Source: Oricola sp. (lineage in GTDB: Bacteria > Pseudomonadota > Alphaproteobacteria > Rhizobiales > Rhizobiaceae). Taken from it: a DNA stretch of 64,000 nt. The translations under genes were made by a program, and so were the position numbers. The stretch lies in NCBI RefSeq assembly GCF_022763245.1, contig NZ_JALEGV010000011.1, positions 186,001 through 250,000 of the forward strand, read 5' to 3'. Shown one piece after another: positions 19,326-62,697 of this stretch. The notes under the pieces are model-generated. The model had not been told where the DNA came from, did no database searches, and saw only the letters and a program-made list of their open reading frames with translations. Within the stretch, counting starts at the first letter, position 1; each line of letters begins with the position of its first letter.

Positions 19326-19337
19326 ACTTCTTCGCCC

Positions 19338-20135: not shown

Positions 20136-20205
20136 CCTGTTGTTAAGCCTCTCGAATCGCCGCCTCTTGCCTTGGCAAACAAGGTGGAGGCCAGCACGAT
20201 CGGAG

Positions 20206-43033: not shown

Positions 43034-43034
43034 C

Positions 43035-45356: not shown

Positions 45357-45378
45357 AGTCTCCACCGCCGTCAAGGGA

Positions 45379-46674: not shown

Positions 46675-46748
46675 GGTTTCCTCCCAGATGTCTGCGGTTG
46701 CAGTTGAAACCCGGGCGCGCCCTCCACGACACGACCACGGGCATGAAG

Positions 46749-47567
46749 TCACGCGATGCGCAGCATCGACCCCCCGTCGATCACGAATTGCGCCCCCGTC
46801 ACATAGGATGAAGCCGGCGAGGCGAGATAAAGGGCGAGCCCCTTCACATCCTCAGGATCGCCGATACGCCCGATCAGGGACTGGGCCTCGAAGGCCGCAC
46901 GGTCCGCCGGGTTCTTGAGCCTGCCGCCCGCGATGTTCGTCATGAACGGGCCTGGCGAAATGCAGTTGACGTGAATGCCGAACATGCCGAGTTCCATCGC
47001 GGTGTTGCGGACCAGATGGTCGACGCCCGCCTTGGCCGGCATGTAGGGCGTGCCCACGATCGCCTCGTTGATCTGCGCTGCCACCGACGACGTCACGATG
47101 ATACGCCCGCCGCCGGTCTTCTTCATGTGGCGTGCGGCGTTTTTGATGGAAGTGTAGACGCCGGACAGGTTCACCGCGATGACGCGATCCCAATGCTCGT
47201 CGTCCATCGCGTCGATCGCGCCGTCCGGGTTGCGGTCGCCCTCGGGCGTCAGGAAGCCGGGGCCGGCATCGATGCCTGCATTGGCGAAGACGACGTCGAT
47301 CCTGCCGTGCTTCTCGGCGACTGCGTCAAAGCCTGCCGCCATTGCAGCGCGGTCCGAAACATCGACCTTCTGCGACCAGACGGAACCGCCGGCTGCCTTG
47401 ATGGCATCGACCGTCTCGGCAAGCCGCTGTTCATCAATGTCGAAAATGCAGACATTCGCGCCGTTGTCGGCCATCACTTCGGCATAGGCGCGTCCGAGAC
47501 CGCTTCCGCCTCCGGTCACGATCACCGACTTGCCGCTGACGTCGAACATCTCCTGTACCGACGGCAT
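46749..47567 (-). CDS. Short-chain dehydrogenase/reductase, classical
   Basis: A 272-residue classical SDR: 'VIVTGGGSGLGRAYAEVMA', 'VVFANAGIDAGPG', Ser in 'IIVTSSVAAQINEA', and 'TPYMPAKAGVDHL' with Tyr and Lys. The Asp near residue 43 ('CIFDIDEQRL') after the second strand points to NAD(H). GGAGGAGG lies 5 bases upstream. It is the first gene of the minus-strand unit that also holds the Liv-type importer and zinc alcohol dehydrogenase, so two dehydrogenases flank the transport genes. Confidence 0.92.
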   Translation of the reverse strand: MPSVQEMFDVSGKSVIVTGGGSGLGRAYAEVMADNGANVCIFDIDEQRLAETVDAIKAAGGSVWSQKVDVSDRAAMAAGFDAVAEKHGRIDVVFANAGIDAGPGFLTPEGDRNPDGAIDAMDDEHWDRVIAVNLSGVYTSIKNAARHMKKTGGGRIIVTSSVAAQINEAIVGTPYMPAKAGVDHLVRNTAMELGMFGIHVNCISPGPFMTNIAGGRLKNPADRAAFEAQSLIGRIGDPEDVKGLALYLASPASSYVTGAQFVIDGGSMLRIA

Positions 47568-47762
47568 TCGTCCTCCTCCCCGAAAACGGTTCTTGGCGAC
47601 CGTTTCCGCCCTGCGGCCTGCGGCCTGCCGGGCACGGTGCCGATGGCAGGCAGCGACAGTTGACGCAAAACCCCGCCGCTCACTGAGCGGGGAGACTGCG
47701 ACATGTTGTCAGCTTAACCGCAGCGGGGACGGCGGTCACGGGTCATAATGGACATTTGGGGC

Positions 47763-47802
47763 GTCAGTTTCGGACATCGCTTTTGGCCTGTCCGAAACTG
47801 AC
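47763..47802. repeat. Perfect 14-bp inverted repeat between two SDR genes
   Basis: GTCAGTTTCGGACA (47763-47776) and TGTCCGAAACTGAC (47789-47802) are exact inverted copies around a 12-bp spacer, 13 bp past the stop of the SDR at 47816. No U-run follows on either strand. It may be a terminator-like structure, an operator, or the remnant end of a mobile element. A second palindrome, CCGCTCA-C-TGAGCGG, lies at 47676-47690. Confidence 0.7.
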
Positions 47803-47815
47803 CCGGAAGCACCCG

Positions 47816-48580
47816 TCAGATGCTCATTCCGCCGTCCACCATGTGCAGCGTTCCCGTCGAGAACGTACTCATGTCGCTCGCCAGAAACAACGCGGAAGCG
47901 GCGATTTCGTCGGGCGACGCGTGCCGGCCCATCGGGATGATGCTGTTGAAGAACTCCGTGCCGTCGCGGCCCGTCGCGGCCGTGAACCCGTCCTCGACAT
48001 TCTTCTGGAAACTGTTGTCGATCGGCCCCGGGTGAAGCGTGTTCACGCGGATGCGGCGCGGCGCGAGTTCCTTGGCGAGGCACCGCATGAGCCCGACCTG
48101 GGCATGCTTCGCCGTGATGTATCCGTAGACGCCCGGGTCACCTGTCACCCCCGCGACGCTCGACGTGATGATGATGCTGCCACCGTCACGCATTTTCGGC
48201 ACCGCGTTCTGGCAGGCGAGAAAGGCGCCGCGCACATGCACCGACAGGACGCTCTCGAAGACATCCAGCGGATATTCGTCGATTGGCGCGACGGTGCCGA
48301 AATTTCCGGCATTGCTCATCAACACGTCGATCTCGCCGAACCGCCGTGTCGCCGCCTCGACATAGGCCGCGGTCGATGCCGCGTCGGACACGTCGGCGGC
48401 GACCGTCAGCGCGGAGTCGCGATACGTCCCCAGTCCGAGACGGTCGAGATCCGGCTCATCCAGATCGACCAGCACGACGCAGGCTCCCTCCTCCAGGAAC
48501 CGCCGCGCAGTCGCACTTCCGAGACTGCCGCCAGCGCCCGTGATCACGCAATGCTTGTCCTTCAACAATGGTCCAGACAT
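47816..48580 (-). CDS. Short-chain dehydrogenase/reductase, classical
   Basis: A 254-residue classical SDR with 'CVITGAGGSLGSATARRFL', 'DVLMSNAGNFG', Ser in 'IIITSSVAGVTGD', and 'YGYITAKHAQVG' as the Tyr-Lys motif. 'VLVDLDEPDL' after strand two suggests NAD(H). GGGGAGGGG precedes the ATG. It is separated from the next SDR by the inverted repeats and 248 bp, so it is probably its own unit or follows the SMR gene. Confidence 0.9.
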   Translation of the reverse strand: MSGPLLKDKHCVITGAGGSLGSATARRFLEEGACVVLVDLDEPDLDRLGLGTYRDSALTVAADVSDAASTAAYVEAATRRFGEIDVLMSNAGNFGTVAPIDEYPLDVFESVLSVHVRGAFLACQNAVPKMRDGGSIIITSSVAGVTGDPGVYGYITAKHAQVGLMRCLAKELAPRRIRVNTLHPGPIDNSFQKNVEDGFTAATGRDGTEFFNSIIPMGRHASPDEIAASALFLASDMSTFSTGTLHMVDGGMSI

Positions 48581-49131: not shown

Positions 49132-50370
49132 TCAGAGCAGTTCGAATCTCAGACCCGCATGCTTGGTGATCCGGTCACGCAAAAGCGGGCCGAGCGCCGA
49201 GGCCGGCGTCCAGAAGCCGCCGCCGACACCGATCCTGTCGGCATCTTCGGCGAGGCACAGGGCCGCCTCGACCAGCATTCTGCTTGTCGATTCGATCGCC
49301 GGATCGCCCTGTCCCGTGATGCGGGCCTTCAGGATCGTGCCGTCAGACATCTCACCGACCTGGATCAGTTCGTAGGAGCCCGTTTCGCGCAATTCGGCAG
49401 ACGGACCCTCGCCCGATTTCGGCAGCACGTGACGCTTCAGAAGCCGCCGGGTGGCAGGGATCGCCATCGCGATCAGGAAGGTCCGACCGAGCAAAGCCTG
49501 GCGCATCGCCACCCACCAGCCGCCGACGCCGCCTCTCGTCAACGCTGTCTCCGCATAGCTGAAATCGCGACCATAGGGATATTTGAGCAGCGCATTGGTG
49601 CGCCGCACGACCTTCGCGTTCATCGGCGCCATGAAGTAGGGATTGGTCCAGGCTTTCAGATCCTTGTCATAGGTGACGGAGACCGGCATCATTCGATCCG
49701 GCTCTTCCAGTCCCTGCCGCTCGCCCTCGGGACAAAGCGCGTAGGGATCCACGGACAGTGCATCGAAACCCGGATCCTTCTCGCGCAATTCCATGGCGTT
49801 CAGGAACGTCGCCGCGGTCCCGCCGCTGAAGCTGCCCTTCATCCGGGTGATCCGCGTGGTGACGCGCGTGCAGGGCCTGCCGTGGCGCTGCACCGCAGCC
49901 TCCTGCAGAAACTGAACGCCCAGATCGGAAGGGATCGAGTCGTGCCCGCAAGCATGCACGATCCGAGCACCGGTCTCGCGCGCCTCGGCCTGATGCGCGT
50001 CGATCATCGCCCGCATCCATTGCACCTCGCCCGTCAGGTCGCAGTAATGCGTGCCACTTCGGACACAGGCTTCCAGCAACTCCGTGCCGTGGAGAGCGAA
50101 GGGGCCGACGGTCGACACCACGACCCGGGTTCGCGCAGCCATTTCTGCCAGGAAGGCGCGATCATGGCTGTCCCCGATCAGGATCGCGGCCGTGCTACTG
50201 GCATCAGGAAGCGCCTTTCGCACCGCCTCTAGCTTGGTACGATTTCGCCCGCCGATCGCCCATCTCAGCCCGTGCGCTGCGATCCTGCGCGCCAAGTGAT
50301 GCGCCACGCGCCGTCCCGCGGCGCCGGTCGCGCCCCAAAGGATGATGTCGAAGTCGCGTGTCCCGCTCAT
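49132..50370 (-). CDS. Saccharopine-dehydrogenase-like / trans-acting enoyl reductase family protein
   Basis: A 412-residue protein whose N-terminus has a dinucleotide fold 'IILWGATGAAGRRVAHHLA', 'WAIGGRNRTKLEAV' and 'STVGPFALHGTELLEACV', then 'SGTHYCDLTGEVQW' and 'GFDSIPSD-like' HDSIPSDLG near residue 145. These match saccharopine-dehydrogenase-like oxidoreductases, including mycobacterial trans-acting enoyl reductases. True lysine metabolism is unlikely. It lies 76 bp upstream of the SMR gene and 30 bp after the 2TM gene. Confidence 0.85.
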   Translation of the reverse strand: MSGTRDFDIILWGATGAAGRRVAHHLARRIAAHGLRWAIGGRNRTKLEAVRKALPDASSTAAILIGDSHDRAFLAEMAARTRVVVSTVGPFALHGTELLEACVRSGTHYCDLTGEVQWMRAMIDAHQAEARETGARIVHACGHDSIPSDLGVQFLQEAAVQRHGRPCTRVTTRITRMKGSFSGGTAATFLNAMELREKDPGFDALSVDPYALCPEGERQGLEEPDRMMPVSVTYDKDLKAWTNPYFMAPMNAKVVRRTNALLKYPYGRDFSYAETALTRGGVGGWWVAMRQALLGRTFLIAMAIPATRRLLKRHVLPKSGEGPSAELRETGSYELIQVGEMSDGTILKARITGQGDPAIESTSRMLVEAALCLAEDADRIGVGGGFWTPASALGPLLRDRITKHAGLRFELL

Positions 50371-50400
50371 GGCCGACCTGCCGTCATCGCGCGCCGCCGG

Positions 50401-50679
50401 CTATTTGCGGCCCCAATCCCGCTTGCCCATCTCCTTGTCCGTCATGCGGTCGATGATCTCTTCCTTCCGGCGCGCACCGAAAACCGTCACGGCATGGATG
50501 ATGATGGCGACACCCCAGCCAAGCACCGGCCAGATCACCCAATATGAACCCGGCTCGGTCAGGAAATTGATCACCAGAAGCAGAACGCACACGACCGCAT
50601 AGACGGCCAGATGTTTGTAGAAGCCGAATTTGGCTTCCGCCCTGCCACGGGCGCGAATTGTCAGATCATCGGTTTGCAT
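50401..50679 (-). CDS. 2TM domain-containing small membrane protein
   Basis: The 92-residue protein has two membrane helices ('HLAVYAVVCVLLLVINFL' and 'YWVIWPVLGWGVAIIIHAV') with 'FYKH' before the first and 'RKEEIIDRMTDKEM' after the second, fitting the 2TM domain family. The domain is found fused to sensor kinases elsewhere; no function is known for the stand-alone form. GGGGGAAG precedes the ATG. Confidence 0.8.
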   Translation of the reverse strand: MQTDDLTIRARGRAEAKFGFYKHLAVYAVVCVLLLVINFLTEPGSYWVIWPVLGWGVAIIIHAVTVFGARRKEEIIDRMTDKEMGKRDWGRK

Positions 50680-50785
50680 TTCGTCTTCCCCCGCAAAGAA
50701 ATCGGGACAAGATTACTTTGCGGAAGACGGCATGCGTTGATGCCCGTCAATCACGGGATGGAAGGCCGGTTCGCATGATTACTTG

Positions 50786-52132
50786 TCAGTCGATCGCGAA
50801 GCGCCGTGCCAGATCGATCAGCGATTTCTCCGAACCGCGCGCCCCGACCAGTTGGAATCCGAACGGCCGGCCGTCGGCAGATGTTCCCGCCGGCACGCTC
50901 AATCCCGGCAGGCCGAGTGCGTTCGCAAACGCCGTGAAGACCGCATGGCCTCTCGGTCCCACCGACTGTCCGTCGATCGTCTCCGGATGGCTGGTCTCTT
51001 TCGCCCAGGAAAGGGCCGCAATCGCCGGCGTCATCAGCACGTCGAAACCGGCCATCGCCTCGCGATACGTATCCTTCAGCTTTTCGATCCCCACGATCGC
51101 GCGGGCGTAGTCCGTCGCCGTAAAGCCGCGGCCTGTCTCGGCCATCGCCTTCAATGCCGGCCCGGCCTGTTCGGCGAGGGCGGGGTTCTGCTCGAACATA
51201 AAGGCGACGCCCGATGTGCTGATGACCGGCCAGATCGCGTCCATCGGCGAGAGACAGTCGAAACTGTCGCGGGTCTCGATCGCGCAGCCGCGCGAGCGCA
51301 GGCTTTCGGCCGCGCGGTCGATGCCCGCCGCGATCTCCGGATCGACGGGCTGGCCGTTGAAGGTGCGGGCGTGGAGTATGCGCGGCGCATCCTCGGTTCG
51401 CGCTTCCGGCAGCGCGCCGTCCGCGAGCACGTCGAGCATCAGAGCGATGTCGTCGAACGAACGGGCAATCGGGCCGACGACTTCGAACTCTCCAAGGATC
51501 GCGGGAAATCCGTGTCCGCGCCGGATCGTTCCCGATGACGGCTTGAGGCCGAACACCCCGCAATGCGACGCCGGCCTGCGGATCGAACCGCCGCCGTCGG
51601 TGCAAAGCGCCAGCGGGCCGATGCCGCTTGCGACGGCCGCCGCCGCGCCGCCGCTCGATCCGCCCGGCGTCAAGGCCGGTTTCGCGGGACTGCCGGTCGC
51701 ACCGAACAGCAGATTGTCGGTGTAGCCCTGTACCGTCAGTTCCGGCACGTTGGTCTTGCCGAAGATCACGAGACCGGCCGCCCGCAGCCGGGCCACCGGC
51801 CGCTCGTCATGGTCCGGCACGAAATCGGAAAAGGCACGGCTGCCCCAGGTCGCACGCATGCCCGCAACGAAGAGATTGTCCTTTACGGTCATCGGCACGC
51901 CGTCGAGCCCGCTCGCGGGCGTACCATTTCGCCATCGTTGCGTGCTCGCCTCAGCTGTGGCTCGCGCCTGTTCGACAGCCAGCGTCACCACCGCGTTCAG
52001 GGAAGGATTGACCGCATCATGACGCTCGAGCACGGCATCCAGCGCATCGACGGGCGTGAAACGACCCGCCGCATAGCCCTCGACGAGCTCGCCCGCCGTC
52101 AGCTGCCAGAGCGGCCGGTCGCCGCCGCTCAT
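50786..52132 (-). CDS. Amidase (amidase signature family), last gene of the ring-opening cluster
   Basis: The 448-residue amidase-signature enzyme has the Ser-cisSer-Lys triad: Lys in 'DGVPMTVKDNLFV', cis-Ser in 'TPGGSSGGAAAAVASG', and the nucleophile in 'LCTDGGGSIRRPASHCG'. The family hydrolyses linear amides; AtzE, AtzF and allophanate hydrolase are members that act after cyanuric acid ring opening. Its start overlaps the stop of the AtzD-like gene (ATGA), so it very likely hydrolyses the ring-opened product. Length is that of AtzE-like enzymes without the extra allophanate-hydrolase domain. Confidence 0.88.
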   Translation of the reverse strand: MSGGDRPLWQLTAGELVEGYAAGRFTPVDALDAVLERHDAVNPSLNAVVTLAVEQARATAEASTQRWRNGTPASGLDGVPMTVKDNLFVAGMRATWGSRAFSDFVPDHDERPVARLRAAGLVIFGKTNVPELTVQGYTDNLLFGATGSPAKPALTPGGSSGGAAAAVASGIGPLALCTDGGGSIRRPASHCGVFGLKPSSGTIRRGHGFPAILGEFEVVGPIARSFDDIALMLDVLADGALPEARTEDAPRILHARTFNGQPVDPEIAAGIDRAAESLRSRGCAIETRDSFDCLSPMDAIWPVISTSGVAFMFEQNPALAEQAGPALKAMAETGRGFTATDYARAIVGIEKLKDTYREAMAGFDVLMTPAIAALSWAKETSHPETIDGQSVGPRGHAVFTAFANALGLPGLSVPAGTSADGRPFGFQLVGARGSEKSLIDLARRFAID

Positions 52133-53208
52133 GCCTTGACGATCGCCGCGATCGGCGCTTCGCCAGGCGCGCATTGATGCTCCGTCCCGCCGGACAGGAA
52201 GATCGCCGGATCGCCGGTGACGGAGGCGATGACAGCGCCCGCGGCGGCACGCGCATGCCGTTCGAAATGGATATCGGCGTCCGACATCATTGTCGTGCGC
52301 CGGCCCCTGATCTTCGGCGCGGCCTCGCCCTTGGCGAAGACGGCGAGTATGCGATCCTCTTCGCCGTCCTGAAGGCCGGCGGATGCGAGCGCGCGGCGCA
52401 CGCCAGCCGCGTCGATGGCGTCGCCCAGGACCGCGTGGCCGATGCGGCAATCGCTGGTGGCATCAGGCGCGTTGCCGAACAGCAGGATCTCGCATTTCGT
52501 CAGTTCGCCGCCCGCCGACGTGGACGCGACCATCGAGAAGACAGCCATATCCTTGGCGATCGTCGTCTCAGACACCTCCGCCGCATCCACCTCACCGAGG
52601 CCGAGCGCGACGCCCAGCGCCATCGCGCCACGGGCATAGGGTTTCGACCCGTTCGGATCGCGCGTCACCACAGCCGCGCCACGCGCATCCGCATCGGCGA
52701 TCTTCGCCGGCGAAAGCAGCGGCCCCTTCACCTGCACATAGTGGACATCGGCGGGATCGGCGATCCCGGCCTCGGCCAGCGCCCGCTTCACCGCATCCGC
52801 GACTTCCCCGACATGGACCATGGTGCCGACTTCCTCTGGCAGGATGTCGCGCGTCATGACGATGCCAAGCGCCAGCCGCCCGCCCGGGACGGTCTCGCCG
52901 CCGGTATCGGCAGAGCGTGTGAAGACGGTTGCGTGCGGCGACAACACACCTTCCGTGCCGCCCGACCATACGAAGGCGATCTCGCCCATGATCTCCTCGG
53001 CACTTCCGCCGCGATAGGGCGCCAGGGCCCGCGCGAAGGACAGGGTGGCGAAACCGCGCGTGAAATCATTGGCGCCGCCATTGCCTTCCGTTTTGCCGAT
53101 CACGGCGACGATGGCGTTGGCGTCGATCGTGCCGTCTTCGAGGAGGGCGACGAGTGCGGACACGTCGTCGGGTGCGTTCATGGCGATCTTGTGTACGCCG
53201 ACTTTCAT
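52129..53208 (-). CDS. Ring-opening amidohydrolase (cyanuric acid hydrolase/barbiturase, AtzD/TrzD family), copy 1
   Basis: The 359-residue protein is of family length and has three related segments, each giving a Ser/Lys site: Lys39 ('VIGKTEGNGGANDF') with Ser82 ('WSGGTEGVLSPH'), Lys161 ('VQVKGPLLSP') with Ser231 ('STSAGGELTK'), and Ser near 341 ('SGGTEHQCAPGEAP'). The family opens cyclic ureides such as cyanuric acid or barbiturate. The last loop departs from the usual EHQGPxGGG. AGAGG precedes the ATG. It sits 37 bp after the permease gene and overlaps the amidase. It is paralogous to the gene at 57145. Confidence 0.9.
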   Translation of the reverse strand: MKVGVHKIAMNAPDDVSALVALLEDGTIDANAIVAVIGKTEGNGGANDFTRGFATLSFARALAPYRGGSAEEIMGEIAFVWSGGTEGVLSPHATVFTRSADTGGETVPGGRLALGIVMTRDILPEEVGTMVHVGEVADAVKRALAEAGIADPADVHYVQVKGPLLSPAKIADADARGAAVVTRDPNGSKPYARGAMALGVALGLGEVDAAEVSETTIAKDMAVFSMVASTSAGGELTKCEILLFGNAPDATSDCRIGHAVLGDAIDAAGVRRALASAGLQDGEEDRILAVFAKGEAAPKIRGRRTTMMSDADIHFERHARAAAGAVIASVTGDPAIFLSGGTEHQCAPGEAPIAAIVKA

Positions 53209-53245
53209 CTGCGACCTCTTCTCGTGCGTGTGCTGTCGGTTCGGG

Positions 53246-54022
53246 CTACTTGCCGCCCCAATGGACGAAGCGCCGTTCCAGGATGATGAAAAGCAGGTTG
53301 AGCCCGTAGCCCAGCGCGCCCGCGGCGAAGATCGACGCATACATCTCCGGCATGTCGAAGATCATCTGGGCGTTGATGATGCGCTGGCCGAGCCCGTCGG
53401 TGGAGCCGATGAACATCTCCGCGACGATGACGATCACCAGCGCGATGGAAATGCCCGAGCGCATGCCGACGAAGGTCTGCGGCAGCGACTCCCAGATCGT
53501 GACGTCCGTCAGGATCCGCACCCTCGGCGCGCCCATCACCTTGGCGGCCAGCTGGCGCTGCTTGCGGGCGTTCATCACGCCATAGGCGGTGTTGAAGACG
53601 ATGATCAACGCCGCACCGAAGGCGGCCACTGCGATCTTGGCTTCCTCGCCGACGCCGAAGATGACGAGGAACAGCGGAAAGAGCGCCGATGCCGGCGTGG
53701 AGCGGAAGAAGTCGACCGAGAACTCGACGGAGCGATAGACCGTCTCGGAGGATCCCAGGAACACGCCGATCGGGACCGCGACGATGATCGCGATCGCAAA
53801 CGACACCGTCGTGCGCACGATCGTGCGCCAGAAATCGTTCCACAGCGTGCCTTCCGTCAGGCCGGACACGAAGGCATGCCAGGATTCGCCCGGTGTCGGC
53901 AGGAGCACGGGATCGACAAGCCGTCCTTCGCTCGCCAGCCACCAAAGGAAAACGAGAACGGCCGCACCGATCAGCGGCTGGAGACGTTTCACGATCCGGT
54001 TCTTTCCAAGACCCGCGCTCAT
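53246..54022 (-). CDS. NitT/TauT-type ABC transporter permease
   Basis: A 258-residue membrane protein with six spans and the binding-protein-dependent transport motif 'EAKIAVAAFGAALIIVFNTA' and 'VRILTDVTIWESLPQTFVGM' (EAA-like loop). Similar to SsuC/TauC and pyrimidine-precursor (RutG-unrelated, ThiX-type) permeases. It overlaps the ATPase gene by 4 bases. It supplies the channel of an importer embedded between the two amidohydrolase genes. Confidence 0.9.
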   Translation of the reverse strand: MSAGLGKNRIVKRLQPLIGAAVLVFLWWLASEGRLVDPVLLPTPGESWHAFVSGLTEGTLWNDFWRTIVRTTVSFAIAIIVAVPIGVFLGSSETVYRSVEFSVDFFRSTPASALFPLFLVIFGVGEEAKIAVAAFGAALIIVFNTAYGVMNARKQRQLAAKVMGAPRVRILTDVTIWESLPQTFVGMRSGISIALVIVIVAEMFIGSTDGLGQRIINAQMIFDMPEMYASIFAAGALGYGLNLLFIILERRFVHWGGK

Positions 54023-54885
54023 TTGCGCACCTCCCGCTGGAAGATTTCGAGGCTGCGGGATTTCACGGCGATGAACTCGTCCGTCAGCGTCGTTTCGGGC
54101 GTCCTCGGACGCGATGCATTGAACTGCAGCCGCTCGGCCACCTGTGTCGGCTTCTTGGTCAGGAGCAGAATCTCGTCGGCAAGCGTCACCGCCTCGTCGA
54201 GATCATGCGACACGAGAAGCGTCGTCACCTCCCGCTCGGTCAGGACCTTCTGCAGCCGGTCGCGCAGGAAAAGCGTCATTTCGTAGTCGAGCGCGGAAAA
54301 GGGTTCGTCGAGGAACAGCACTTCCGGATCGACGACGAGGGCGCGCATGATCGAGACGAGCTGCTGCTGGCCGCCGGACAATTCATAGGGATAGCGGTTG
54401 AGGTCGATCTTCACGTCGAAGCTGGTGAGCAGTTCCTCCACGCGGGCGTCACGCTCCGCCTTCGACAGCCCGAGGAACTGCAGCGGGTAGCGGATGTTGT
54501 CGATGGCCCGCGACCAGGGAAACACCGCCTCGCGGTAATTCTGGAAGACATAGCCGATCCGCGTCTCTCGCGCGGTCTTGCCGTCGAACAGGATCTGTCC
54601 GCTGTCGAACTCCAGGATGCCGGAGATCATGTTGATCAGCGTGCTCTTGCCGCAGCCGTTGGGCCCGAAGACGGAGACGACCTTGCCCTTGGGAATGTCG
54701 AGATCGAAGTCCTTGTAGAGGACGACGTCGTCGAAGGTCTTCGTCAGGCCCCGGATCGTGATGTGGGTGCCCTTGGGAAACCAGCGCAGCCGGTCGGGAT
54801 CGGACTCCGGCGACGCATCAAGCGCCGCCGGTGTTTCGGCCATGGTCGAGGGATCGATCGGCACGCGAGCAAGAACCTCGTTCAT
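54019..54885 (-). CDS. NitT/TauT-type ABC transporter ATP-binding protein
   Basis: The 288-residue ATPase has Walker A 'VFGPNGCGKSTLINMI' near residue 73, Q-loop 'YVFQNYREAVFPW', signature 'ELSGGQQQLVSIMRALV', Walker B 'PEVLFLDEPFSALD' and switch 'LLVSHDLDEAV', as in SsuB/TauB. About 38 residues precede the ATPase fold, longer than usual. Its start overlaps the binding-protein stop by 1 base and its end overlaps the permease. Confidence 0.92.
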   Translation of the reverse strand: MNEVLARVPIDPSTMAETPAALDASPESDPDRLRWFPKGTHITIRGLTKTFDDVVLYKDFDLDIPKGKVVSVFGPNGCGKSTLINMISGILEFDSGQILFDGKTARETRIGYVFQNYREAVFPWSRAIDNIRYPLQFLGLSKAERDARVEELLTSFDVKIDLNRYPYELSGGQQQLVSIMRALVVDPEVLFLDEPFSALDYEMTLFLRDRLQKVLTEREVTTLLVSHDLDEAVTLADEILLLTKKPTQVAERLQFNASRPRTPETTLTDEFIAVKSRSLEIFQREVRK

Positions 54886-55865
54886 TACTTTTCGAGCAGG
54901 TCTTCGGCGGAAACCGAGGAGGCCACGACACCCAGATCGACGCCAATCCCGATGAACTTCTGGAAGTCCTCGATTTCCTTTTCGGTCAGGTCGGCAGACA
55001 TCACGAAATGGGCGAGCGGAACGGTGTCGACCAGCTTCGGATTGACGTTCATGTCCTCGGCCATATAGGCGCGGGCGGTCGGGTCGTCATTGGCGTCGGC
55101 GGTCGCCTTGGCCCAGGCGGCCTTGAAGCGGGCGGCGACATCGGGGCGCTCCTCGAGCATCTTGCCGGAAACCGCGGCGCCGGCCGCATAGGCTTCCGCC
55201 GCTTCGTCCTTCAGCAGGTACTTGGAGATGACGCCGGTTTCCAGGCGCTTGGCGATGCCCTGATCGACCATGGTGCTGGCGAGGGCCTCAAGCGTGTAGC
55301 CGCCCTCGAACGAGCCGCCCTGCATGGCGCCGATATGGTTGCCCATGCCCTGTTCCTGGATGGTGAAGTCGTCGCCTTCCTTCAGGCCGGCGGCGACGAG
55401 AACGGCCTTGGCCGCGCCGAGATTGGCCGGTCCGGGCGCCGAGAACAGGCGCGCGCCCTTCAGGTCGGCTACGGTCTTGGCTTCGCTGTCCGGTGCGACG
55501 ACGAACTGCTCCATGATGTATTCGGAATTCTGGCCGTTCAGCGCGATGAATTTCAGGGTGCCCGGGCGGCGCGACACGATGTTGGCGCCTTCCAGCGTCA
55601 CGACGTTCGACGCGACATCGATGTCGCCGGTCACGAGCGCCTGCACGATCAGCGGATGCGTGCCGATGACGACCGTCTCGACCTCGATGTCGGCTTCTTC
55701 GAAATAGCCGCGCTTCAGACCGATGTAATAGGGCAGCGCCGAGCTTGCCTTGAAGACGCCGACCTTGACCTTGTCGGCGGCATCGGCGGAAACCGTGCCG
55801 ACCGCGGTCGCCGCGATCACGAGGCCGGTGACGGCCAGTTGTTTCAGTGAGGTGAGCTTGATCAT
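54885..55865 (-). CDS. ABC transporter substrate-binding protein (NMT1/SsuA-like)
   Basis: The 326-residue protein has a Sec signal peptide ('LKQLAVTGLVIAATAVGTVS', then 'ADAAD', cleavage near residue 29) and an SsuA/NMT1 fold: 'ALPYYIGLKRGYFEEADIEV', 'VQALVTGDIDVASNVVT', 'KTVADLKGARLFSAPGPAN'. Relatives bind sulfonates, nitrate, hydroxymethylpyrimidine or other N-heterocycles. AGGGA precedes the ATG. Its setting suggests the cyclic ureide or its precursor as ligand. Confidence 0.9.
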   Translation of the reverse strand: MIKLTSLKQLAVTGLVIAATAVGTVSADAADKVKVGVFKASSALPYYIGLKRGYFEEADIEVETVVIGTHPLIVQALVTGDIDVASNVVTLEGANIVSRRPGTLKFIALNGQNSEYIMEQFVVAPDSEAKTVADLKGARLFSAPGPANLGAAKAVLVAAGLKEGDDFTIQEQGMGNHIGAMQGGSFEGGYTLEALASTMVDQGIAKRLETGVISKYLLKDEAAEAYAAGAAVSGKMLEERPDVAARFKAAWAKATADANDDPTARAYMAEDMNVNPKLVDTVPLAHFVMSADLTEKEIEDFQKFIGIGVDLGVVASSVSAEDLLEK

Positions 55866-55916
55866 CCTGATTTCCCTGTTGCTGGAAGTCGTTGGCCGCA
55901 TCTGGCGGCAGTGCTG

Positions 55917-57143
55917 TCAGCCAACTGCGCTTTCCTCCCTGGAGTGAACCGCCCCGATCGTTCCGATATCGTTGTAGAGACGCTTGAGTTTTTCCTGGAA
56001 CGCCGGGTTTCTCTTTTTTCGTGTGCCCTCGACCGGGTCGGACCCGGCCAGAAGCGTGTCGCTCGCCTCGAGCGAGAACTCCATGACGAAGCGCGTGCGG
56101 TCCGCGCGCACCGCCTCGATGGCCGCCAGCCAGTCGCCGGCGTCAAAATTGCCGTCCCCCGCCAGCCGCTCGATTTCGCCGAGCGCCGCGCAGGCGCCCT
56201 CGATCGCCTGGGTCGCGCCCTGGCCGAGCGTCGGGACCATGCCGTTGGAACTGTCGCCGAGATAGAGGACATTGGCCCCGGTCTCGCGATATCGCGCCTC
56301 CGATTCCTGGATACGCGCCCAGTGCAATTCGCTTTCGGGGGCGCAGACCGTGTCGATCAGCCATCGGGCCTGACCGCTGGCATAGCCGGAAACCGGCGTG
56401 TAGGCCGCCCGCAACGCCTCGGCGGTCTTCATCTCGTCAGGCGTTTCCATATCGAGCGGGATGGGGAAGGTTCCCGCGATGTAGATGTGGTCTTCCGGCA
56501 CCCGATAGGCGAGCAGGCGGTTCGGTCCATTGAACCATTGCTGGTAGTCCGTGATCAGGCCGTCGCTCGTATCGGGCACGAGGGTCCTGAAGATCGCGAC
56601 GCCGATCTGGCGCGAATTCACGCCTCCTGCAAAGGTCTGGCGGGTCTGCGAGAACCGGCCGTCCACCGCGATGAGCAGGTCGACGTCGGTCAATTCGTGA
56701 TCGCCCTCGCTGTCCGACCAGCGTATCCAGGTCTTGCCGGCACCCTCCGGCGTGGCGCCCATGTCGGCGATCCGGCATCCATAGGTGATCAGCCCCTCGG
56801 CGGACTCCCGCAGCACCCGGTAGAGTTCCGACCAGCGCAGGCGCCAGCCGTTCTCGGAGGCCACGTCGTCCAGCGGCAGGTCGAAGAGCACGGTTCCGTC
56901 GGTCAGCGAAATGCGCCAGTTCGTCCACTCGAAGGCTGCGTCGTCGATGATGCCGGCGAGTTCCGGATCCTGAATGCGCAGCGCCTTGACGGCGTTCGGG
57001 CCGATGTTCAGCCCGGTGCCGGCCTCGGCATGGTCGCCCGGCTCGACGCGTTCCAGGCAATGGATGTCCATGCCGGGCAGTCGCGACAGCCCGCGCGCGA
57101 TCACGCATCCCGCAACACCTGCCCCGACGATGACGATCCGCAT
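55917..57143 (-). CDS. FAD-dependent monooxygenase (PHBH/salicylate-hydroxylase family)
   Basis: A 408-residue group A flavin hydroxylase: 'IVIVGAGVAGCVIARGL' binds FAD, the 'DG' motif is in 'DLLIAVDGRFSQTRQTF' near residue 165, and 'VLYLGDSSNGMVPTLGQGAT' is the GD motif. Such enzymes hydroxylate aromatic or N-heteroaromatic rings with NAD(P)H and O2. GGAG lies 8 bases upstream and the start is 1 bp after the amidohydrolase stop. Cyanuric acid hydrolysis needs no oxygenase, so this gene points to a different ring substrate made cleavable by hydroxylation. Confidence 0.88.
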   Translation of the reverse strand: MRIVIVGAGVAGCVIARGLSRLPGMDIHCLERVEPGDHAEAGTGLNIGPNAVKALRIQDPELAGIIDDAAFEWTNWRISLTDGTVLFDLPLDDVASENGWRLRWSELYRVLRESAEGLITYGCRIADMGATPEGAGKTWIRWSDSEGDHELTDVDLLIAVDGRFSQTRQTFAGGVNSRQIGVAIFRTLVPDTSDGLITDYQQWFNGPNRLLAYRVPEDHIYIAGTFPIPLDMETPDEMKTAEALRAAYTPVSGYASGQARWLIDTVCAPESELHWARIQESEARYRETGANVLYLGDSSNGMVPTLGQGATQAIEGACAALGEIERLAGDGNFDAGDWLAAIEAVRADRTRFVMEFSLEASDTLLAGSDPVEGTRKKRNPAFQEKLKRLYNDIGTIGAVHSREESAVG

Positions 57144-57144
57144 C

Positions 57145-58278
57145 CTAAGCTCCTGCCGTTTGCTGGTTGATGTCGGCGGTGTCAGACGCGGCGATCACCG
57201 CGATCAGGCCGCCACCGTCGGGGCCCTGGTGCTCCGCACCGCCCGACACGAAGATGCGGGTGTCCCCGATGACGCCCGCGACAAGCCCGCCGACCGCACC
57301 GCGAATATGGCGCTGGGCGTCGATATCCGTATCGTTGAGCATGGTGTGGCGCTGGCCGTGGATCCGGCCTCGGCGGTCCGGCTCCGCCTTGACCAGAACG
57401 CCCCTGACCCTGTCCCATTCGCTTGCGTCGAGTTGCGGCGTCGCGGCAAGCCCGAGATCGCCCAGAACCGCCTGGACCGCCGTAAGATCGACGGCGTCGC
57501 ACATGGCCCGGTGGGCGATCCGCAAGTTTCCGGTCCAGCCCTCGCTGTTGCCGAGCACGATCACTTCGTTCGCCTCGACCTCGACGCCGGAGGATATGCT
57601 CGCGCGATCGCAGTGGCGCTGGAAATCCTCCAGGAACAGGTCGTCCGACAGTTCGTCTTCGCCGATGTCGCCCAGCGCCAGGGCAACGCCGAACGCGCCG
57701 GCCGCGCGTGCCAGCGCCATGGAGCGCCCGGCATTCGGCGCCGGCGGCGTTTCGCCACGCTCATGCAGGATCGCGATGCGCTCCGACGTCAGGCACGGCG
57801 CCTTGACCTGCACGAAATGCACGTCGTCCAGCGACCGGATCCCCGCATCCGAGATGGCCGCTTCCACGGCTTTCGCCACGCTCAGCGCGTGCTCGCGCGT
57901 TCCGACATGACGATAGTCGAGCGCCGGCGAAAACGCCGTGCCGACGGCAAGCGCACCGGTGGCGCCGTCGCTCTCACCGGTCTTGCGCACGAAAACGAGA
58001 TAATGCGGCGACAGAACGCCCTCGGTCCCGCCCGAAAGGATGCAGGGAATGCGCCTGGCGAGGCTTTCGGCCGGCTCGTTCAGATAGGTCGACAGCATCG
58101 TCATCAGGCGGTCTGTGAAATAGCCGCGCGTGAAGTCATTGACGCCGCCATTGCCCTCGGTCTTGCCGATGAACGCGACGATCTCCTGCGCCAGGATCGT
58201 GCCGTTCTCGATCAGGCCGGCCAGGGCCGAAACGTCGCCGGGATTGTCCATCGAGAGCTTGAATACGTCGGCCTGCAC
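57145..58278 (-). CDS. Ring-opening amidohydrolase (cyanuric acid hydrolase/barbiturase, AtzD/TrzD family), copy 2
   Basis: The 377-residue protein has the same three-segment layout: Lys39 ('FIGKTEGNGGVNDF') with Ser82 ('LSGGTEGVLSPHY'), Lys159 ('VQVKAPCLTS') with Ser229 ('SISSGVEVEANE'), and a canonical last loop 'VSGGAEHQGPDGGG'. The start codon is GTG at 58278; it aligns the N-terminus with copy 1, and the ribosome site is weak. It is the first gene of the operon and directly coupled to the flavin monooxygenase. Identity to copy 1 is modest by eye, so distinct substrates are likely. Confidence 0.9.
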   Translation of the reverse strand: MQADVFKLSMDNPGDVSALAGLIENGTILAQEIVAFIGKTEGNGGVNDFTRGYFTDRLMTMLSTYLNEPAESLARRIPCILSGGTEGVLSPHYLVFVRKTGESDGATGALAVGTAFSPALDYRHVGTREHALSVAKAVEAAISDAGIRSLDDVHFVQVKAPCLTSERIAILHERGETPPAPNAGRSMALARAAGAFGVALALGDIGEDELSDDLFLEDFQRHCDRASISSGVEVEANEVIVLGNSEGWTGNLRIAHRAMCDAVDLTAVQAVLGDLGLAATPQLDASEWDRVRGVLVKAEPDRRGRIHGQRHTMLNDTDIDAQRHIRGAVGGLVAGVIGDTRIFVSGGAEHQGPDGGGLIAVIAASDTADINQQTAGA

Positions 58279-58369
58279 GGTTCACTTCGTCCGAATTTCT
58301 TGACTGTCCAAGGGAAGGTTGGGACGAAAAATGCATCTGCGATAGTTCAAAAAAACACTCGGCCTGAGA

Positions 58370-58388
58370 GCAAAATGTGTGCACTTGC
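58370..58388. promoter_or_regulatory. Candidate LysR-type binding dyad GCAA-N11-TTGC
   Basis: A 19-bp dyad 92-110 bp upstream of the first amidohydrolase gene and 27 bp past the LysR stop. LysR proteins bind T-N11-A dyads; the position suits an activator site. Four-base arms leave room for chance. Confidence 0.4.
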
Positions 58389-58415
58389 CGATAGCTCGGC
58401 GCTTCATGGAGGGGT

Positions 58416-59315
58416 TCAGATACGCGCGAGCTGCTGCTTCAGGGCTTCCGAAAAGCTGAGCGCCGGCAAGGACAGCTTGCGGCCTGCCCGGCTCACCAGC
58501 ACAAGCCGGCCATTGTTGAGTTCGGGGTCCGACAACGGCAGCGCCACCATTTCCCCGGCATTGACATATTCCAGCGTCCCGATCTGGAACTGGAAGCAAA
58601 TTGCGCCCGTACGCCGGGCGAACACAGTCAGCGAGCGCACGGTGTTGGATTCCAGCACGACATTGAGCGACAGGTTCGAACGCCGGATCACCGGTTCGAG
58701 GAGCTGCCGGCCTCCGAAGGCCCGGTGACCGATGGCGATGGGGTATGGCTGGCAATCCGCCAGGCGGATCTTGCTGCGGCCGGCCAGCGGGTGGTCGGGG
58801 CGCACCAGCGCACAAAGCGGCTGCCGGATCGAGGCGATCTCGTTGAGGTCCGGCGACGGCGCCGGGTCGTGGACGAGGGCAAGGTCCGTCTCGTCGCGCA
58901 GAAGAGCGGCGATCAGGTCGACCGTCCCGCCGACCATGAGCTGAAAATTCACCCGCCGATGATGAACCTGGTAATCCGCGATCGCGGTCGGGATGAGGTC
59001 GTTGGCGACGGAATGCGCGACCGCCAGGCTGACATTGCCGCGCACCAGCCCGCGCAGCTGTTCGATCTGGGCGTTGGCCGATTCGATGTCGGCCAGGTTT
59101 CGCCGCACCGTCTCGATCAGCACCTCCCCGGCCGTGGTCAGCCGCACCCCCTTCGCGAGGCGCTCGAACATCGGCACGCCGAGTTCCGCCTCGATCTCGA
59201 TGATCTTGCGGTTGAGCGATGTCGAGGCGACGCCGAGCTTCGCGGCGGCCTTGCGGATCGAGCCCGTTCGGGCGACGGCGTCGAGATAGAGGTAGTGGCG
59301 GGGCGGGCGGAACAT
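58416..59315 (-). CDS. LysR family transcriptional regulator
   Basis: The 299-residue protein has the LysR winged HTH ('YLDAVARTGSIRKAAAKLG', 'ASTSLNRKIIEIEAELGVPM') and an effector domain from about residue 90 ('VRGNVSLAVAHSVANDLIP', 'LCALVRPDHPLAGRSKIRLA'). It is encoded just upstream of, and in the same direction as, the ring-opening operon with a 137-bp gap, an order that differs from the usual divergent LysR arrangement. It is the likely regulator of that operon, as AtzR is for atzDEF. Confidence 0.92.
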   Translation of the reverse strand: MFRPPRHYLYLDAVARTGSIRKAAAKLGVASTSLNRKIIEIEAELGVPMFERLAKGVRLTTAGEVLIETVRRNLADIESANAQIEQLRGLVRGNVSLAVAHSVANDLIPTAIADYQVHHRRVNFQLMVGGTVDLIAALLRDETDLALVHDPAPSPDLNEIASIRQPLCALVRPDHPLAGRSKIRLADCQPYPIAIGHRAFGGRQLLEPVIRRSNLSLNVVLESNTVRSLTVFARRTGAICFQFQIGTLEYVNAGEMVALPLSDPELNNGRLVLVSRAGRKLSLPALSFSEALKQQLARI

Positions 59316-59423
59316 CGGGGCTTCTTGCTGAACAAGCCGCCCATTCTAGACCATTCCCGCCTCAAGGCCATGGGCTTTCAGCCCCCCCGGCAGCCACGCA
59401 GCCGAGGCTGAAGGAAGGCCCGC

Positions 59424-60194
59424 TCAGCCTGCGCCGAGTTGCTTCAGCCGTTTTGCGGCGAGTTCGTTGCCCGCGTCGGCCGCCTTCTTCAGGAGCGCCC
59501 TCGCCCGGTCGGGATCCTGATCGACGATCAGGTTCGCCAGCGCATATTGCGCGAAGGTGTTGTCCTGCGCGGCCGATTTCTCCAGATAGGAACGGCCTTT
59601 CGCGACATCCTTGGCCACGCCGGTGCCGCTCACATACATCTCGCCTAGCCGCACCTGTGCCCACGCGTTTCCGGCGCTGGCGGAGGGGGTGAGATAGGTC
59701 ATCGCCTTGGCCAGATCCTTCTCGACGCCGGTGCCGTTCAGGTAGATGTCGCCCAGCCGATATTGCGCCCAGGGATTGTCCTGCGCGGCGGCCTTGGCAA
59801 GCAACTCGCGACCCCGTTCCGGCTCCTTCTCCACCCCGGTGCCGTCCACCAGAATCTCACCGAGCCGGTATTGCGCCCAGTGATTGCCCTTGTCGGCGGC
59901 GAGCGTGTAGGCGGCCACGGCGGCGGGGATGTCCTTTTCCACCCCTTGCCCCTCGAACAGCATGTTGCCGTATTTGTAGGCGCCCCACGGATTGCCGAGA
60001 TCCGCCGCCTTCTTGTAGTAGCGCGCCGCGACCGAGGCGTTGCTGTCGGTCGGCTGCTTCATCAGCGCGTCGCCGGCCTTCATCGCTTGCATGGCCTCGT
60101 TGCCTGCAGCCGGGGAAATGGTGTCCAGCGTGCACGCCGCCACGAACAGCGAGGAGGCCACCACGGCTACTCTGCTCATGCTGATACGTTTCAT
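59424..60194 (-). CDS. Sel1-like repeat lipoprotein
   Basis: The 256-residue protein has a lipoprotein signal ('VAVVASSLFVAAC', Cys21 as lipidation site) and about five to six Sel1 repeats from residue 45 on; the recurring core is AQYRLG(D/E)I(L/Y)-x-(D/N)GTGVEK followed by an AA/A-x-x-N-W unit. Sel1 proteins are scaffolds; several, such as AlgK, assemble exopolysaccharide machinery. Start 60194 is set by the signal peptide and GGCAGGA. It follows the glycosyltransferase gene by 82 bp, supporting a joint role. Confidence 0.9.
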   Translation of the reverse strand: MKRISMSRVAVVASSLFVAACTLDTISPAAGNEAMQAMKAGDALMKQPTDSNASVAARYYKKAADLGNPWGAYKYGNMLFEGQGVEKDIPAAVAAYTLAADKGNHWAQYRLGEILVDGTGVEKEPERGRELLAKAAAQDNPWAQYRLGDIYLNGTGVEKDLAKAMTYLTPSASAGNAWAQVRLGEMYVSGTGVAKDVAKGRSYLEKSAAQDNTFAQYALANLIVDQDPDRARALLKKAADAGNELAAKRLKQLGAG

Positions 60195-60276
60195 TGTCCT
60201 GCCCCCATCATCCCGGTCATGACCCCATGGTTCGACCGCGGCCGCCGCCACCCTATCGAATACGGGCCATGCAGTT

Positions 60277-62697
60277 CTACTGCTGCGAACCGATTTGCCC
60301 GGCGATCCTGGCTGCCACGTCGGAGCGCGCCTCACTTGCCGCGGCGTCTCTCGGCGCCGCGAAGCGGTCTGACACCGCCTCGCTGTAGTTCACCGCCACA
60401 CCTGTCGTCTCGCTATTGGCGTCGCCGGCCGCAAGGCCCCAGGGCAGCGCCACGAGCATGACGGCTGAAAGCGCCGGAACCGGCGCGAAGCGCCTGGCGG
60501 TCTGTGCGCCCGCTCCGGCAAATCCTCGGCCCGCACGCGCCAGCGCCTTGACGGGGCGCGCCAGGAAGGAGAGCCGCTGCGCCACCGAGAGCGAGAGGTC
60601 GTTCACGCCCTCGAGCACGCCGACGAAGCGCGTCAGCCCGTAGCCGTAGAGCAGGATATTGGCGATCGGGATGATCGCGCCGGCATATTGCCCGGCCGCC
60701 AGGGCCTTCGCGGCGAAATGCACCATCAGCGCCAGGATGCCCAGGTTGAACAGATAGGCGTAAGGCGGAATGAAGCTTCGGTCGGCGATCTTCGGCGTGC
60801 GCGAGAAACTGCCCTTGCGACCCGTCACGATCTGCCGGATCGACGACGCGATGCCCGCGAAATTGACCGGCAGCAGCATCAGGTTCAGCGCACAGACGCC
60901 GAACAGGTCGTGCGGCCGATATCCGAGGCGGCGCAGGTCCAGGCCGTAGAGCAGGAAATAGGGCAGCATGATCAGTGGCGTCCACACGATGCTGTCGGCC
61001 TCTGAACTGGTCCACAGCATCAGCGCGAGCACGGCCACGTTGCCGACGACCGGCGACAGCAGATAGTGCGAACGCAGCAGCAGCTCCGGCAGACGGCGGA
61101 TGCGGCGTCCGGCCCTCAGATATTCACGCATCAGGGCCGGCAGGATGATGAGGCCGCCATTGGCCCAGCGCTTGCGCTGAATGGCCAGCGCTCCGAAATC
61201 GGCAGGCGTCGCGCTGTAGGCGAGCGGGTCGAAATGGTTCTGCACGCGCCAGCCGCGCTCCAAGAGGTCGATCGTCGAGCCCGTGTCCTCGATCACCGTG
61301 CGGTCCTGCACGAAGACCTTGACCGTCTTGTCGCCCTCGGGCTGCGTGGTCTCGATGTCCTTCAGCGCATCGTAGCGGATGACCGCGTTCGCCCCCACCC
61401 AATAGGCCGCGTCGAAGTGGGTCGATCCCTGGTGGACGAGATACTGGATGTCGGTGGTCGCACCCGCGATGCGCTCGATCGCCGAAGCCCCGTTTGGAAA
61501 GGTGCGATACGGCGTCTGCGCAACGCCGACATTCGGCCGCTTCTCCAGCACGTTGACCAGTGTCAGGATGTAGCGGTTCAGGATCACGCTGTCGGCGTCG
61601 AGCGTCAGAACGTAGTCGGGACGCGCGACCTCGAAATCGCATGCCTCCTCCGCGCCGCACTCTTCGATGAACCGCTTGCCGTCCCGCTCGGCGACAGCAT
61701 AGCGCCCGCCCATCAGCCCGATATAGGCGTTGAGGTTCATGGCCTTGTTCGGCGCATACGACAGGTTCTCGAAACGCTTGCGCTGGAAGCTGGAGACGTC
61801 CGAACAGAAGAGGTTCGCCAGCTTCCGGTATTCCGCGTCCACCTGCGCGATGCCCAGATCCGCGCGCTCCAGCCGGTCCGCGTCGCGGCGACATCGCTTC
61901 GCCAGGTCCAGGATCACGTTGTCCGTCAGGAACGTGTCGACGTGCCGGAAGTCCTCGGTTGCCTGCGCCCTGAGGTCGCCGGAGAGAGCCTCGAGCCATC
62001 CCGCGACGAGCCGGTAGGTCGAGGCGAGCCGCTTGGCTTCGCCCTCGGCGGAAAACCGGCCGAAAACCCAGCGCTCCAGCCAGTCTGAGGCCTCGCGGCG
62101 CAAGAGGTCGCTGCGCTGATCGAGCCAGGCTTTCACTTCCTCGATCGCGGCCAGCGAGCTTTGCAGGGACTCCGCATCGCCCGGAGGATCGTCAACGAGG
62201 ACGACGATGTTGCGATTGCCATATTGCGCCAGCGCCGCCGACAGGACCGTGGAGACGAGAACACGCCGTTCTTCGCGGTAGGACGGGATCAGGACGGTGA
62301 CCAGCGGCGCTTCGGATTTCAAGAGTTCGGCCGCATCCGTCTCCGGTACGGATTGATCCCGAAATCCGCGCCGCGCGGCACCCCAGCGGTTCAGCTGATA
62401 GGCGATCGTGCAATAGAAAAGACCGAGGATCAGCCCGTAGTGAACCAGAAGCCCCGTGCTGAAAAGCGCCTGCACATAGAAATGATAGACGACGAAACCG
62501 CTGAGCAGCACGGTCGAAAACACCATGCCGGCGAGGATCGCACCGGACTCGAGGACACGCGGACGCGGTGCCGTGACCGTCTCCGATGCGTCCCTCGCCT
62601 GGGCGGTCGGCTTCTTCGCGAAATGCTGGGCGGTGCCGGCGCTGATCGGCGCCGTGCTCAACTCCATACCCAGATTGTCTCGCGTGCAATCGTACAT
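60277..62697 (-). CDS. Membrane glycosyltransferase family 2 (cellulose-synthase-like) with large insertion
   Basis: An 806-residue protein: two N-terminal membrane spans (50-105), a GT2 domain with 'VLVDDPPGD' (Asp169/170), 'TLDADS' (367-369), 'VIEDTG' (470-471) and 'QRKRW' (507-511), then about six spans and a long hydrophilic tail. These are the D, DxD, TED and QxxRW motifs of processive synthases. The distance from Asp169 to DxD is about 200 residues, with a helical stretch at 178-310 not seen in standard cellulose synthases. No PilZ domain is visible. Start is uncertain (62697 or 62667). The sugar polymer is unknown. Confidence 0.87.
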   Translation of the reverse strand: MYDCTRDNLGMELSTAPISAGTAQHFAKKPTAQARDASETVTAPRPRVLESGAILAGMVFSTVLLSGFVVYHFYVQALFSTGLLVHYGLILGLFYCTIAYQLNRWGAARRGFRDQSVPETDAAELLKSEAPLVTVLIPSYREERRVLVSTVLSAALAQYGNRNIVVLVDDPPGDAESLQSSLAAIEEVKAWLDQRSDLLRREASDWLERWVFGRFSAEGEAKRLASTYRLVAGWLEALSGDLRAQATEDFRHVDTFLTDNVILDLAKRCRRDADRLERADLGIAQVDAEYRKLANLFCSDVSSFQRKRFENLSYAPNKAMNLNAYIGLMGGRYAVAERDGKRFIEECGAEEACDFEVARPDYVLTLDADSVILNRYILTLVNVLEKRPNVGVAQTPYRTFPNGASAIERIAGATTDIQYLVHQGSTHFDAAYWVGANAVIRYDALKDIETTQPEGDKTVKVFVQDRTVIEDTGSTIDLLERGWRVQNHFDPLAYSATPADFGALAIQRKRWANGGLIILPALMREYLRAGRRIRRLPELLLRSHYLLSPVVGNVAVLALMLWTSSEADSIVWTPLIMLPYFLLYGLDLRRLGYRPHDLFGVCALNLMLLPVNFAGIASSIRQIVTGRKGSFSRTPKIADRSFIPPYAYLFNLGILALMVHFAAKALAAGQYAGAIIPIANILLYGYGLTRFVGVLEGVNDLSLSVAQRLSFLARPVKALARAGRGFAGAGAQTARRFAPVPALSAVMLVALPWGLAAGDANSETTGVAVNYSEAVSDRFAAPRDAAASEARSDVAARIAGQIGSQQ

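Follow-up and report, generated by a model that had tools for sequence, protein, structure and literature searches.

Gene organization of the locus

We analyzed a 64,000-nt stretch of the Oricola sp. contig NZ_JALEGV010000011.1 (hereafter the window), in which eight genes, all on the minus strand and running from 59315 to 50786, encode in transcription order a LysR-type regulator, a ring-opening amidohydrolase (AtzD_A), a flavin monooxygenase (FMO), the substrate-binding protein (SBP), ATPase, and permease of an importer, a second ring-opening amidohydrolase (AtzD_B), and an amidase (Table 1). AtzD_A and AtzD_B belong to the AtzD/TrzD/barbiturase family (PF09663, cut-off 25 bits) and are the only two PF09663 genes found by a search of the 5.63-Mb host genome (G000; genomes and loci are designated here by G and L numbers). 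An earlier sequence-only reading had described a tight minus-strand unit with this gene content, and the Pfam matches, the fold of the FMO, and the spacing of the genes bear it out: LysR and AtzD_A are 137 bp apart, the gaps from AtzD_A on are 1, 15, -1, -4, 37, and -4 bp, and 415 bp separate the amidase from the next downstream gene. Judging from strand and spacing, the operon would be cotranscribed. Two starts in the mechanical list of open reading frames are probably too long, so that 53208 is more likely than 53340 for AtzD_B and 52132 more likely than 52450 for the amidase. The stretch between LysR and AtzD_A is the likely promoter region; a LysR-box scan found no T-N11-A box with at least four paired ends in it, and a scan of 50300-59500 for sigma-70-type sites found none. 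The SBP had no match among PDB sequences at an E value of 0.01.

Table 1. Features of the amidohydrolase/monooxygenase locus in the window
Feature	Position	Strand	Evidence and remarks
LysR-type regulator	58416..59315	-	First gene; PF03466 117.8 bits, PF00126 60.3 bits
LysR–AtzD_A stretch (137 bp), likely promoter region	58279..58415	-	
AtzD_A, ring-opening amidohydrolase, Q321 clade	57145..58278	-	PF09663 420.2 bits; NF052395 457.2 bits (cut-off 360)
FMO, group A FAD monooxygenase	55917..57143	-	Fold matches of the AlphaFold model
SsuA/NMT1-like SBP	54885..55901	-	PF09084 50.1 bits
SsuB-like ABC importer ATPase	54019..54885	-	PF00005 111.9 bits
SsuC-like ABC importer permease	53246..54022	-	PF00528 72.3 bits
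AtzD_B, ring-opening amidohydrolase, E321 clade	52129..53208	-	PF09663 460.6 bits; NF052395 427.7 bits (cut-off 360)
Amidase-signature hydrolase	50786..52132	-	PF01425 275.8 bits; start set by ATGA overlap with AtzD_B

Active sites and specificity sites of the two amidohydrolases

In published work on this family (PMC3758960), the specificity signature of cyanuric acid hydrolases (CAHs) comprises R195, T321, R325, G345, and G346, and the residues separating AtzD from a barbiturase model are Arg195, Thr321, Arg325, and Gly345 against Asn, His, Lys, and Val. According to the same source, neither activity was seen in one Azorhizobium family member (Group V), and the AtzD/barbiturase family can therefore be expected to include additional ones. 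We placed these sites by motif anchors on the published AtzD numbering and scored 92 family rows. As the sequence-only reading had noted, the Ser/Lys sites of AtzD_A and AtzD_B are intact, with all three pairs present in each protein. Both also keep the substrate arginines R54, R195, and R325 and share G345/G346 with the CAHs (AtzD, TrzD, and the Moorella and Azorhizobium enzymes). Compared with these enzymes, however, T321 is replaced by Q in AtzD_A and by E in AtzD_B, and S194 by A or G, so that neither protein carries the full CAH signature. The barbiturase signature (N195/H321/K325/V345) is likewise absent from both, although the PF09663 domain and the Ser/Lys dyads are shared with the Frankia barbiturase (5hwe).

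Across the 92 rows, site 321 is T in 63, Q in 13, E in 9, H in 3, and D in 2, and is not readable in 2. All 13 AtzD_A-type rows have Q and all nine AtzD_B-type rows have E, and neither residue occurs in any other row. The T321 rows include the four solved CAHs named above and the Rhizobium johnstonii 3841 protein, a CAH by annotation, and H321 is confined to the Frankia barbiturase and two further genes with N195/K325/V345. Both of the latter are AtzD-family members from the order (L091 at 1399 and L098 at 4588) and are barbiturases by signature. D321 is found in two very divergent rows. Three very divergent PF09663 proteins, two of them in one locus (L104 at 4623 and 12051; L105 at 4749), have D or a gap at this site and altered residues at other catalytic or arginine sites. 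AtzD_B differs from the CAHs in its C-terminal metal loop as well, where it reads CAPGEAP and most of the family has GPxGGGP; E occupies site 355 in all nine AtzD_B-type proteins, and CxPGEAP replaces GPxGGGP in the five examined for the loop.

The same division is recovered in a phylogenetic tree of 88 rows (L101, L102, and two L103 rows, which are of odd length or partial and are counted in the site table, were left out). The Q321 rows form one clade (99/99), the E321 rows form another (100/95), and the states at site 321 require five changes, the minimum possible. With barbiturase as the root, AtzD_B falls outside the branch holding all CAH references (92/93, a node not starred, in the large tree; 97/93 in a smaller tree). 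The L104 and L105 rows join the others by long branches in the large tree; they were omitted from the smaller one, in which the AtzD_A and AtzD_B clades are unchanged.

Recurrence of the FMO with AtzD_A

We searched for the FMO in 397 genomes of the order at an E value of 1e-30, and in samples of the class, the phylum, the order of G597, and the families of G065 and G278 at 1e-40. In the order, class, and phylum samples, which partly overlap, at most four candidates were scored per genome, so misses are possible. PF09663 matches occurred in 67 of the 397 order genomes and the FMO in eight; 80 of the 81 PF09663 places were read, all but the piece G211:C173:1-378. Genes of the AtzD_A type (Q321) were found in the same eight FMO genomes, and none was read in the remaining 59 with PF09663 (in the very divergent G202 protein the site is unreadable). 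This co-occurrence has a Fisher P value of 7e-17, which is overstated in that related genomes are counted as independent. In these eight genomes, each AtzD_A lies 5-59 bp from the FMO as measured between alignment ends. AtzD_B was detected in nine order genomes, that is, in 4 of the 8 with the FMO versus 5 of the 389 others (Fisher 8e-6). Within the eight FMO genomes, four (G065, G310, G334, and G278) have a separate T321 paralogue, so that cyanuric acid hydrolysis in them has a candidate besides AtzD_A.

The wider samples added two FMO genomes from the 385 of the class sample, and in the phylum sample (398 genomes) the FMO was found only in the window's own genome. It was present in 4 of 18 genomes in the order of G597, one of which was already in the set. 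A scan of genome contigs, which finds close relatives only, contributed two Bradyrhizobium FMO loci, and a plasmid search at 1e-30 gave no FMO match. Altogether, among 15 FMO loci from four samples, AtzD_A lies within 60 bp of the FMO in ten and at 3.4 kb in three (G597, G1103, and G1104), where importer genes intervene. Moreover, 33 further AtzD loci, covered with flanks of up to about 5 kb, contained no FMO-like match; the flanks of loci L003-L032 spanned about 1.5 kb. The FMO is patchily distributed: the family of G065 has it in 1 of 12 genomes and the family of G278 in 3 of 28, a pattern suggestive of gene transfer or frequent loss. In G597 (L056, 14336-18605), Q321 and T321 AtzD-family genes lie within 5 kb on one strand.

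The flavin monooxygenase

The FMO passed no Pfam or NCBIfam cut-off. Fold comparison of its AlphaFold model (mean predicted local distance difference test score 87.8) puts group A flavin hydroxylases at the head of the matches, led by the FAD-dependent urate hydroxylase HpxO of Klebsiella (3rp6-3rp8), and the dinucleotide-binding and GD motifs of this class are visible in the sequence. In all 15 FMO sequences, the residues corresponding to R209 and Y221 align with Arg204 and Tyr216 of HpxO. The FMO also differs from HpxO: it scores 60 bits against the HpxO equivalog NF033623, the cut-off of which is 500, and the operon has no gene for 5-hydroxyisourate (HIU) hydrolase. The FMO tree has long branches and does not single out one nearest characterized relative. 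At residues 299-300, after the GD motif, the window FMO has Ser-Asn, and its 14 homologues have Ala-His.

Gene neighborhoods of related loci

All eight genes recur in G065, where the opposite strand carries AtzD_B and the amidase and a LysR relative (54% identical) takes the corresponding position. An amidase of one kind is present in 10 of the 15 FMO loci, window included, and the nine others are 44-54% identical to that of the window. In G310, an amidase with 47% identity stands beside AtzD_B on another contig, and AtzD_B loci without the FMO hold related amidases (53% in G236 and 48% in G085); amidase matches beside other AtzD-family genes are 28-40% identical. The importer type varies: it is SsuABC in the window, G065, G597, G1103, and G1104, and G278, G050, and G310 have an energy-coupling factor importer that includes a PF09819 component.

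Several further genes accompany subsets of these loci. Directly upstream of AtzD_A in the two Bradyrhizobium loci (L051 and L052) is a three-subunit molybdenum hydroxylase, a second type of ring-hydroxylating enzyme beside AtzD_A; its large subunit received no name, the best score being 936.6 bits against a cut-off of 950 for an 'exception' model. A glyoxalase-superfamily gene occurs in five loci (ARR65, S69, G597, G1103, and G1104), and a class V aminotransferase in G278, G050, G310, and G307 as well as in the AtzD_B loci G282 and G085; that of G278 is related to the aspartate-glyoxylate aminotransferase BhcA, under the cut-off (440.6 versus 650 bits). Purine genes are represented by PuuE in S69 (over the cut-off) and G307 (below it) and by a uricase in S69. 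Six loci of a second AtzD_A subclade (G278, G050, G310, G307, G291, and G334; loci L042, L043, L044/L045, L046, L047, and L048) carry, with varying completeness, a sugar-related block of short-chain dehydrogenase, epimerase, SIS, PfkB, GntR-UTRA, BtpA, and PnrA/Bmp-importer genes.

Some single loci have additional features. In G236 (L107, 1131-2669), a different flavoprotein (PF13738, 512 aa) lies between an AtzD_B/amidase/Bmp-importer locus and importer genes resembling those of the window (identities of 60% for a partial ATPase and 56% for the permease), which could mean that an unrelated oxygenase works together with an enzyme of the AtzD family. In G1097 (L066, 3914-6634), a distant FMO homologue has a ureidoglycolate-lyase-like gene on one side and a PuuE homologue on the other, with no AtzD nearby; to judge from these neighbors, the FMO family may have its origin in purine metabolism. 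Next to the Bradyrhizobium ARR65 cluster (L051) are a nicotinate phosphoribosyltransferase-family gene (11836-13221) and a second molybdenum hydroxylase with cytochrome c domains and a 2Fe-2S subunit (16117-20174), which resembles nicotinate hydroxylase. In the window itself, a saccharopine-dehydrogenase-domain protein (49132-50370) and a Sel1-repeat protein (59424-60335) flank the operon with no sign of belonging to it, and genes for a branched-chain-type ABC importer and two short-chain dehydrogenases (42017-48580) lie a few kilobases downstream on the same strand.

Proposed pathway

On balance, we lean towards reading the operon as an inducible catabolic unit for a small nitrogen-containing ring compound, comprising import, hydroxylation, ring opening by AtzD_A, and amide cleavage, AtzD_B serving to open a second ring. 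The SsuABC-type transporter would import the ring compound, and the FMO would hydroxylate one of its electron-rich carbons; the oxo ring concerned may resemble barbiturate or urate. The hydroxylated cyclic ureide would then be hydrolyzed by AtzD_A, with the Ser/Lys pairs as catalytic machinery and the three arginines binding carbonyls, and the amidase would cleave a linear ureide or amide. AtzD_B may open a second, related ring, that of another substrate or of an intermediate further along the route, and the end products could be, for example, glyoxylate and urea. We infer this order of steps. The barbiturate- or urate-like nature of the ring is a guess from the FMO's moderate resemblance to HpxO, a resemblance that other hydroxylases nearly match.

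The conservation of the three arginines would point to a ring of six members bearing three carbonyl-type oxygens, hence the guess of a hydroxylated barbiturate. We regard a more specific, so far undescribed oxidative ureide route as possible rather than probable: the FMO would hydroxylate a barbiturate-type pyrimidinetrione at C5 to give 5-hydroxybarbiturate (dialurate) or alloxan, AtzD_A would be the first hydrolase with specificity for the hydroxylated ring, AtzD_B would add a further ring-opening specificity, and the amidase would free urea and a C2-C3 acid leading to glyoxylate. The sequence-only reading had proposed a similar succession of steps for a pyrimidine-, hydantoin-, or triazine-like compound. 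The association of the FMO with AtzD_A (13 of the 15 loci within 3.5 kb), in most loci with an amidase of one kind and with importers of varying type, supports part of it, and a triazine-like substrate is unlikely on chemical grounds, because a flavin hydroperoxide would need an electron-rich carbon.

A number of observations weigh against the proposed pathway. Its substrate and enzyme activities are predictions from gene content, and the role of site 321 derives from a homology model of barbiturase in PMC3758960. Both AtzD proteins exceed the cut-off of the CAH equivalog NF052395. The placement of both in the classical CAH clade, part of the outcome that the sequence-only reading had named as refuting it, was not recovered, since AtzD_B branches outside; AtzD_A, however, is placed among the CAHs in both trees, although in a supported clade of its own. 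G523 and G1097 have an FMO homologue with no AtzD in the 15-20 kb examined, and the sugar-related block in six loci is left unexplained. The FMO also resembles HpxO weakly: fold scores are nearly tied (39.4, 39.0, and 38.1, HpxO being the top match), and identity to HpxO (21.6%) is below that to 6-hydroxynicotinate 3-monooxygenase NicC (24.3%) and tropone monooxygenase TrlE (24.8%), the nearest solved relatives of the FMO by sequence. NicC ranks first in the sequence search, and TrlE and NicC both rank above HpxO in the profile search. In addition, NicC carries the Tyr of the conserved pair, with His in place of the Arg, and TrlE has His/Asn in a multi-sequence alignment, but a pairwise alignment sets a TrlE Arg opposite the conserved Arg.

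Alternative readings

It is rather unlikely that both AtzD proteins are ordinary CAHs in a cyanuric acid operon to which the adjoining FMO is unrelated. Besides the NF052395 scores and the position of AtzD_A in the tree, the three intact Ser/Lys pairs and three arginines would agree with this, as would the match of AtzE-family models to the amidase, albeit below the cut-off (TIGR02715, 170 bits against 425.75). However, T321 is exchanged for Q or E, the FMO is tied to the Q321 clade without exception in the order sample, separate T321 paralogues are present in half of the FMO genomes of the order, and no FMO-like match accompanies the 33 further AtzD loci within flanks of up to about 5 kb. Since both window proteins pass the NF052395 cut-off without the CAH signature, the NCBI name 'cyanuric acid amidohydrolase' seems to over-annotate, and we judge it too broad. 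Known cyanuric acid systems differ from the window as well. The AtzDEF/AtzR operon of Pseudomonas ADP, which combines an AtzD-family hydrolase, an amidase-signature enzyme, and a LysR regulator in the same way, contrasts with the two AtzD-family genes, the FMO, and the importer of the window, and with a window amidase far under the AtzE and allophanate hydrolase cut-offs. The pRL10 cyanuric acid cluster of R. johnstonii 3841 likewise has an AtzD-family gene, an ABC importer, and further hydrolases, but it is distinguished by cysteine hydrolases, a formamidase, a Bmp-type importer, and T321, and no monooxygenase is annotated within 6 kb of it.

We also doubt a variant urate route, in which the FMO would hydroxylate urate, methylurate, or an 8-oxopurine and AtzD_A would open the six-membered ring of a 5-hydroxyisourate-type product in place of HIU hydrolase. 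HpxO as the top fold match and the retained Arg/Tyr pair would fit such a route, as would the PuuE allantoinase genes near the FMO in S69 and G307, the uricase in S69, PuuE tblastn matches in G334 and G1097, and the neighbors of the G1097 FMO. Against it, a gene of the HIU hydrolase family (PF00576) is present elsewhere in 14 of the 15 FMO genomes, the one miss being G1097, a genome that is 73% complete, and replacement of HIU hydrolase was set aside for this reason. In the host, moreover, PuuE and ureidoglycolate lyase homologues lie within about 6 kb of the HIU hydrolase gene, and a fused purine ring would not offer the three carbonyls that the arginines of AtzD_A fit. It is thus unlikely, from the gene content of these genomes, that the operon replaces the normal urate pathway.

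The sugar-related block raises the question of whether the substrate might be a base released from a nucleoside or from a plant glycoside, with the operon degrading the aglycone after sugar removal. Although six loci of the second subclade share short-chain dehydrogenase, epimerase, SIS, PfkB, BtpA, and PnrA/Bmp-importer genes, this seems improbable, as the window, G065, the Bradyrhizobium loci, and G597/G1103/G1104 have no SIS, PfkB, or BtpA match, some of them showing only weak short-chain dehydrogenase or Bmp matches (31-38%), and Bmp importers flank ordinary CAH genes too. A purine reading based on the Bmp importer was set aside on this last ground.

Finally, a Rhodococcus-type oxidative pyrimidine operon with one AtzD acting as a barbiturase is very improbable: the protein family is the same, and the molybdenum hydroxylase of the two Bradyrhizobium loci could turn uracil into barbiturate, but N195/H321/K325/V345 occur in neither AtzD and are carried instead by the L091 and L098 genes of the order, so a classical barbiturase was rejected. 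A pyridine route resembling isonicotinate breakdown, the chemistry of which was considered by reasoning alone, was set aside after a literature search gave nothing on it.

Significance

In line with the undescribed pathway that the sequence-only reading considered, the signature of neither characterized activity is complete in AtzD_A or AtzD_B. No description of an FMO/AtzD pair was found in the open-access literature, subscription journals being mostly outside the scope of that search. As far as sequences can tell, a known enzyme family appears to comprise two further clades without an assigned activity, and one of these goes with an oxygenase. Two activities have been characterized in the AtzD/barbiturase family, and what is at issue is its natural roles beyond man-made triazines. 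One diagnostic site, residue 321, separates the two further clades, and the oxygenase link to one of them opens a search by enzyme assay for a natural substrate.

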